A stretch of DNA of 64,000 bases. Source: Bacteroidia bacterium. GTDB lineage: Bacteria > Bacteroidota > Bacteroidia > B-17B0 > Aurantibacillaceae. The number at the start of each line of letters is the position of its first letter. Position 1 is the first letter of the stretch. Shown here one piece after another: positions 53,916 to 54,128 of this stretch. Under the pieces are notes generated by a model. The model was given only the letters and a program-made list of their open reading frames with translations, did not search any database and had not been told where the DNA came from. The stretch spans positions 215,793-279,792 of the forward strand of contig JALHRL010000002.1 of assembly GCA_022841465.1 (NCBI GenBank). The letters run 5' to 3'. A program made the translations under genes and the position numbers.

Positions 53916-53994
53916 GCAAAATAAATTAGGCTACAAAAATACCGTTTATAATTTTTGTTTTGCGTTGTTTTAAAAAATAGTGATATTTGGCGCC

Positions 53995-54039
53995 ATGAAT
54001 ATTAAAAAAATAAAATGTGCTAAACCTTCCTTCAGTTAG
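53995..54039 (+). CDS. Putative asd leader peptide MNIKKIKCAKPSFS
   Basis: ATG AAT ATT AAA AAA ATA AAA TGT GCT AAA CCT TCC TTC AGT TAG; stop overlaps attenuator segment 2. Confidence 0.55.
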   Translation: MNIKKIKCAKPSFS

Positions 54040-54098
54040 GAAAGGCATTTTATTTTTATAAAATAAGGCGGGCCTTTCTGTAAAAGAGAGGCTTTTTT
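54025..54098 (+). promoter_or_regulatory. Putative transcription attenuator of asd (segments 1-4 plus U-tract)
   Basis: 1 CCTTCC 54025-54030; 2 GGAAAGGC 54039-54046; 3 GCCTTTCT 54072-54079; 4 AGAGAGGC 54085-54092; TTTTTT 54093-54098. Confidence 0.6.
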
Positions 54099-54128
54099 AT
54101 TGATGTAAAAACTTAAAAGAAATAAAAT

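Follow-up and report, generated by a model that had tools for sequence, protein, structure and literature searches.

A predicted lysine-codon transcription attenuator upstream of asd in Bacteroidia

The DNA analysed, referred to here as the window, was a stretch of 64,000 nucleotides from a Bacteroidia bacterium. The gene at 54129-55130 on the plus strand was asd, encoding aspartate-semialdehyde dehydrogenase, as an earlier note on the sequence had proposed; its product scored 441.9 bits against TIGR01296 (asd_B), for which the cut-off is 324.2. In the model presented below, asd would be the regulated gene. The neighboring gene on the 5' side, an EamA-type transporter at 53043-53915, was divergent and encoded on the minus strand, so that no plus strand gene upstream needs a terminator and one located in the intervening region can serve only the leader transcript. 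Directly 3' of asd, a small ORF at 55142-55582 may encode a GxxExxY-type protein (MHRISWVEKISKKYLDDLTYEVVGAAIEVHK...).

A leader ORF of 14 codons, MNIKKIKCAKPSFS, was located at 53995-54039 on the plus strand, with its ATG at 53995 and a TAG stop codon at 54037-54039. Four Lys codons, the putative control codons, occupied 54004-54006, 54007-54009, 54013-54015 and 54022-54024 (span 54004-54024), the last of which began 17 nt ahead of the base at which pairing in segment 2 begins. The leader had a single Lys just ahead of segment 1, where relatives usually have a pair. The elements that may form alternative structures were all on the same strand. Arm 0, the Lys-codon stretch (54002-54021), paired with the spacer at 54043-54061 in the minimum free energy (MFE) fold and this pairing recurred in relatives. 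Segment 1 (54025-54031) included CCTTCC at 54025-54030 and was weak in the window. Segment 2 (54039-54046), which contained GGAAAGG at 54039-54045 and GAAAGGC at 54040-54046, was the antiterminator partner of segment 3 (54070-54079, with GCCTTTC at 54072-54078), the latter also serving as the 5' arm of the terminator. Folding of the window's leader placed a small hairpin at 54048-54066 inside the 2:3 antiterminator. The 3' side of the terminator, at 54085-54098, consisted of segment 4 (AGAGAGGC, 54085-54092) and a run of six T residues (54093-54098).

A -7 box, GATATTTG (consensus TAnnTTTG), was found at 53982-53989 on the plus strand, with a predicted transcription start at 53994-53995. The leader ORF, the four segments, the T-run and this box had all been described in the earlier note, and each was read from the sequence exactly where it had been placed. 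In Flavobacterium the TAnnTTTG box sits at -12 to -5 (PMC9723704); with the same spacing, transcription in the window would start at about 53994, leaving a single nt ahead of the leader ATG. A TTG at 53960-53962 on the same strand, 19 nt 5' of the -7 box, was read directly and may represent a Bacteroidota-type -33 element. In 38 of the 44 leaders, the ATG was preceded by a TTTG- or TTCG-like box whose end lay 5-10 nt upstream of it. A start almost at the leader ATG, as originally suggested, was thus the predicted arrangement in the window and consistent with most relatives, and these leader mRNAs are probably near-leaderless as a rule.

An independent terminator scan identified a plus strand terminator at 54070-54094, between the leader ORF and asd, and the leader fold was 3.5 standard deviations more stable than those of dinucleotide shuffles (z -3.5). 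The 2:3 pairing in the window was moderately unusual relative to shuffles (z -2.2); the helix, first described as a perfect 7 bp, was present but comprised 8 bp including one G:U pair (54039-54046 with 54072-54079). The 1:2 pairing was likewise found where it had been proposed, although it was no better than in shuffles (z 0.1) and probably matters less than the pairing of arm 0 with the spacer, for which z was -1.0 in the window. In the modeled fold with a ribosome stalled at the Lys codons, the freed RNA formed 2:3 (-13.3 kcal/mol) before segment 4 was made, while with a ribosome at the stop codon, or with no ribosome, the terminator formed. When the whole leader was folded after a Lys stall, the MFE still favored the terminator (-16.5 vs -13.3 kcal/mol), so that read-through must depend on kinetics, as it does in known attenuators.

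Upstream regions of asd were gathered from 70 relatives and 80 named records. The same layout of leader ORF, terminator and antiterminator preceded more than 50 asd genes (44 aligned loci and 8 more) in at least six Bacteroidia families (f1, f22, f28, f36, f38 and f44), including the window's own family and the Chitinophagaceae, to which Niastella yeongjuensis (L079) and Limnovirga soli (L076) belong. Wherever asd was located by script, it was 14-204 nt downstream of the attenuator and in the same direction. Examples of the leaders, besides that of the window, were MNTKKIKCLKKFPL in G008, its sister on the asd tree, MMIKKIKCAKKLFR in G053, and MMTMKHTKRTKKPL (L075), MKMICKNKKHDKKLFHSGKGN (L053), MKMICSKKCMKKPVR (L177) and MILRQKIKKQLKNFR (L200).

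A covariance model built from 25 asd leaders was used to scan 396 genomes of the class, 89 of the order and 300 of the phylum. In the order, 12 of the 89 genomes were positive, all at asd, after one false match in G015 was set aside. The phylum scan recovered the window and seven genomes of one family (f36, that of Limnovirga). Only 2 of 41 sampled genomes of the window's genus kept the element, indicating that it is dispensable. On the asd tree the trait was clustered, requiring 10 changes compared to 39.6 in shuffles, a distribution compatible with an old origin followed by several losses. Model matches at ordinary gene-end terminators (L152, L154-L157, L203-L206 and, at 47 bits, L217) were judged by their context to be noise. 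One genome, G433, had two strong asd-type matches on different contigs (L188 on C45 and L164 on C29), one of which was shown to precede asd; this may reflect duplication or contamination.

Across the relatives the 2:3 pairing had a mean z of -3.1 against shuffles; this test, like the Lys counts, the codon spacing and the covariation, rests on related sequences, the counts are not independent and the z-scores are not to be multiplied. At one position of segment 3, the corresponding bases of segments 2, 3 and 4 were G-C-G in 24 sequences and A-T-A in 15, and other positions of the three segments showed further joint changes. This three-way covariation indicates that both alternative pairings are maintained. 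Moreover, the constraint on segment 2 implies more than a terminator, which by itself would leave segment 2 free to vary. The pairings were scored sequence by sequence; RNAalifold, applied to the alignment of relatives, recovered the terminator only and no antiterminator. The 1:2 helix had a mean z of -1.6 in the relatives; for the helix between the Lys-codon stretch and the spacer that separates segments 2 and 3, the median z was -2.1. The predicted protector is thus mainly the longer hairpin of the Lys-codon stretch with the spacer, which would reinforce a weak 1:2 helix.

The 44 leaders were composed of 27.6% Lys, 10.1% Thr, the second commonest residue, and 6.3% Ile, and 43 of them had at least four Lys. 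There were 203 AAR codons in frame as compared to 76 and 98 in the other two frames and 133 +/- 6 in stop-free dinucleotide shuffles, although the in-frame total may be slightly raised because the start giving the most Lys was picked among candidate starts. Each of the 43 leaders whose terminator was scored had a Lys codon ahead of segment 2, the final one at a distance of 15.6 +/- 1.8 nt. A ribosome is expected to reach about 12-16 nt ahead of its A site, so that a stall on this Lys would just expose segment 2. Phe was the sole common residue with a matching tight spacing (sd 1.3), which is explained by the fact that segment 1 encodes Phe. Both Lys and Ile had been put forward as control codons. 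The comparison supported Lys, but Ile was found ahead of segment 2 in only 30 of the 43 leaders, at a distance with an sd of 11.7 nt, and Thr, Ile, Met, His and others were missing from many leaders and scattered in position (sd 6-13 nt). The putative control residue conserved across the leaders is Lys, not Ile. Relative to the start of segment 2, the leader stop codons began between 6 nt upstream and 12 nt downstream, a position in which a terminating ribosome would mask segment 2.

The asd-leader model also found a His leader, MNLKSHHHHISSNGKS (HHHH), before hisG in the same genome (L153, G000:C25:42399-42502), and a Trp leader, MLQISLNNFWWWFITNVINS (WWW), followed by a terminator was present upstream of a trpE-like gene (L227, G000:C11). 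In relatives, the model located MKQFTHIHHHHTFP before hisG, MITTKNTNWWWFRFNSKA before a trpE-like gene, MNTTTKYFFFNYFYFKQ before the prephenate dehydratase gene (pheA, FFF) and MKNQTLYIIIIIQTL before ilvE (IIIII). Each time the leader residues fit the downstream gene, which makes lysine sensing the natural reading at asd. No attenuator was seen upstream of the genome's own aspartokinase, homoserine dehydrogenase or aminotransferase-IV genes. A prephenate dehydratase gene was not found in this genome. Two relatives (L190, G250:C10:36200-38800; L193, G302:C1:286000-288600) had two tandem Cys/Met-rich leaders (MMCCMMCI, MCMCCMM...), each with its own terminator, followed by an aldo/keto reductase gene and then a nitrite/sulfite-reductase-like gene (PF03460), a possible double Cys/Met attenuator. 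Another genome (G289) carried two copies of a leader ending in DGKPLITAG, with near-identical terminators (L197 on C50, L198 on C5).

The sequence itself and its comparison with relatives show the ORF, the spacing of its codons and the predicted alternative pairings, which are jointly conserved. Together with the His and Trp leaders of the same genome, which act as controls, the conservation, the codon geometry and the three-way covariation support the earlier proposal of attenuation by a translated Lys-rich leader, and we consider it probable (about 0.88) that asd is preceded by a ribosome-mediated transcription attenuator that senses charged lysyl-tRNA. RNA polymerase would begin at or a few nt from the leader AUG and a ribosome would translate the Lys-rich leader. 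When Lys-tRNA is scarce, the ribosome would stall on the Lys codons with its front edge just short of segment 2, and the exposed segment 2 could then pair with the emerging segment 3, blocking the terminator and allowing asd to be transcribed. With ample lysine, the ribosome would proceed to the stop codon and cover segment 2, such that 3:4 and the T-run end transcription. If the leader were not translated, segment 2 would be hidden by 1:2 and by the helix between the Lys-codon stretch and the spacer, and termination would again be expected.

Several other explanations could account for some of these features. The window site by itself could be the product of chance, in which AT-rich DNA yields AAA codons next to a random terminator, and the region had hardly more terminator-like sites than its shuffles did (5 vs 4.4). 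However, the layout is conserved across families in more than 50 relatives, with substitutions that preserve codons and pairs, which leaves coincidence with practically no weight. Control of the terminator by a riboswitch that binds lysine or a similar ligand, or by a T-box, is very improbable. Such elements do control lysine genes in other phyla, and the lysine riboswitch (RF00168) likewise acts through a 5' leader, but it is an aptamer for free lysine with no leader ORF, while the transcript ahead of the terminator is here about 75 nt long and mostly leader ORF, and what is conserved is the Lys codons and their fixed spacing. Moreover, no fitting Rfam family was found at gathering in the window or at E<=1 in five of the loci, and the covariance models for RF00168 and the T-box had no match in either.

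The element could also be the gene for a small RNA or a small functional peptide, with a terminator of its own and no part in the control of asd. The leader transcript would indeed be a separate RNA about 105 nt long, and the leader peptide of a Sinorhizobium attenuator is reported to act in trans (PMC7298713). The constant position and orientation relative to asd and the covariation of segment 2 with segments 3 and 4, something not required of a plain terminator, make this improbable. A multivalent attenuator, in which Lys, Thr, Met and Ile codons jointly control asd and a shortage of any one leads to read-through, gains some credence from the abundance of Thr and from the Chitinophagaceae, whose leaders, MMTMKHTKRTKKPL for example, have Thr and Met besides Lys; in the predicted asd leaders, this one family adds Thr to Lys. 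Yet only 31 of 43 leaders had a Thr 5' of segment 2, at a loose distance (27 +/- 8.4 nt), the window leader has no Thr, and the early codons are too far 5' to free segment 2 as precisely. Joint control by the four residues is therefore considered unlikely, and sensing of Lys is the preferred reading.

The proposed attenuator shares with the enterobacterial trp, his, thr, phe, leu and ilv attenuators a leader ORF whose control codons specify the product, an antiterminator and a terminator that exclude each other, and a stop codon at which a terminating ribosome would mask segment 2. It differs in its Lys codons, its asd gene, its occurrence in Bacteroidota, its probably near-leaderless initiation and its weak 1:2 helix, which the control codons would strengthen by pairing with the spacer between segments 2 and 3. 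The Rfam Thr_leader family (RF00506) gave 30.3 bits at the attenuator of one relative (L083), below the gathering score of 55, and no match in the window; that family has Thr/Ile runs, whereas the asd leaders have Lys codons. Putative leader-peptide attenuators have been reported upstream of amino-acid operons in Flavobacterium psychrophilum, a member of the same phylum for which the same mechanism was proposed, with no example at asd or for lysine given in the main text (PMC9723704). In Sinorhizobium, the SEP5 sORF, with six Thr and three Lys, precedes an 'aspartate dehydrogenase' gene and has been proposed to act as a leader (PMC10117765); this possible Thr/Lys leader is near aspartate-family metabolism, but is Thr-dominated and belongs to another phylum. 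The trpL attenuator of Sinorhizobium is leaderless, so that a leader ORF can be leaderless (PMC10117765). The main text of a broad terminator survey made no mention of Bacteroidetes, asd or lysine, and no lysine leader peptide or asd attenuator for Bacteroidota was found in a search of largely open-access literature. The class of mechanism is a classical one. In the literature searched, neither its Lys specificity nor its use at asd appears to have been described, and the same holds for the conserved family in Bacteroidota.

In the bacteria whose lysine genes have received the most study, the known RNA control of these genes is the lysine riboswitch. A Lys-codon attenuator would add an amino acid to the classical attenuation list and give the Bacteroidota, for which few amino-acid regulators have been described, a defined switch. 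The covariance model and the leader alignment could serve as the starting point for a new RNA family. The asd attenuator would also make transcription-translation coupling testable in a phylum where Shine-Dalgarno sites are seldom used. A more tentative idea, which we regard as possible but hold at less than even odds, is that near-leaderless attenuation is widespread in the Bacteroidota and serves at least Lys, His, Trp, Phe, branched-chain and probably Cys/Met genes, with the control-codon stretch as the outer arm of the protector and with the asd leaders of Chitinophagaceae reading Lys and Thr. If so, such near-leaderless attenuation would imply that ribosomes closely trail RNA polymerase in the leaders.
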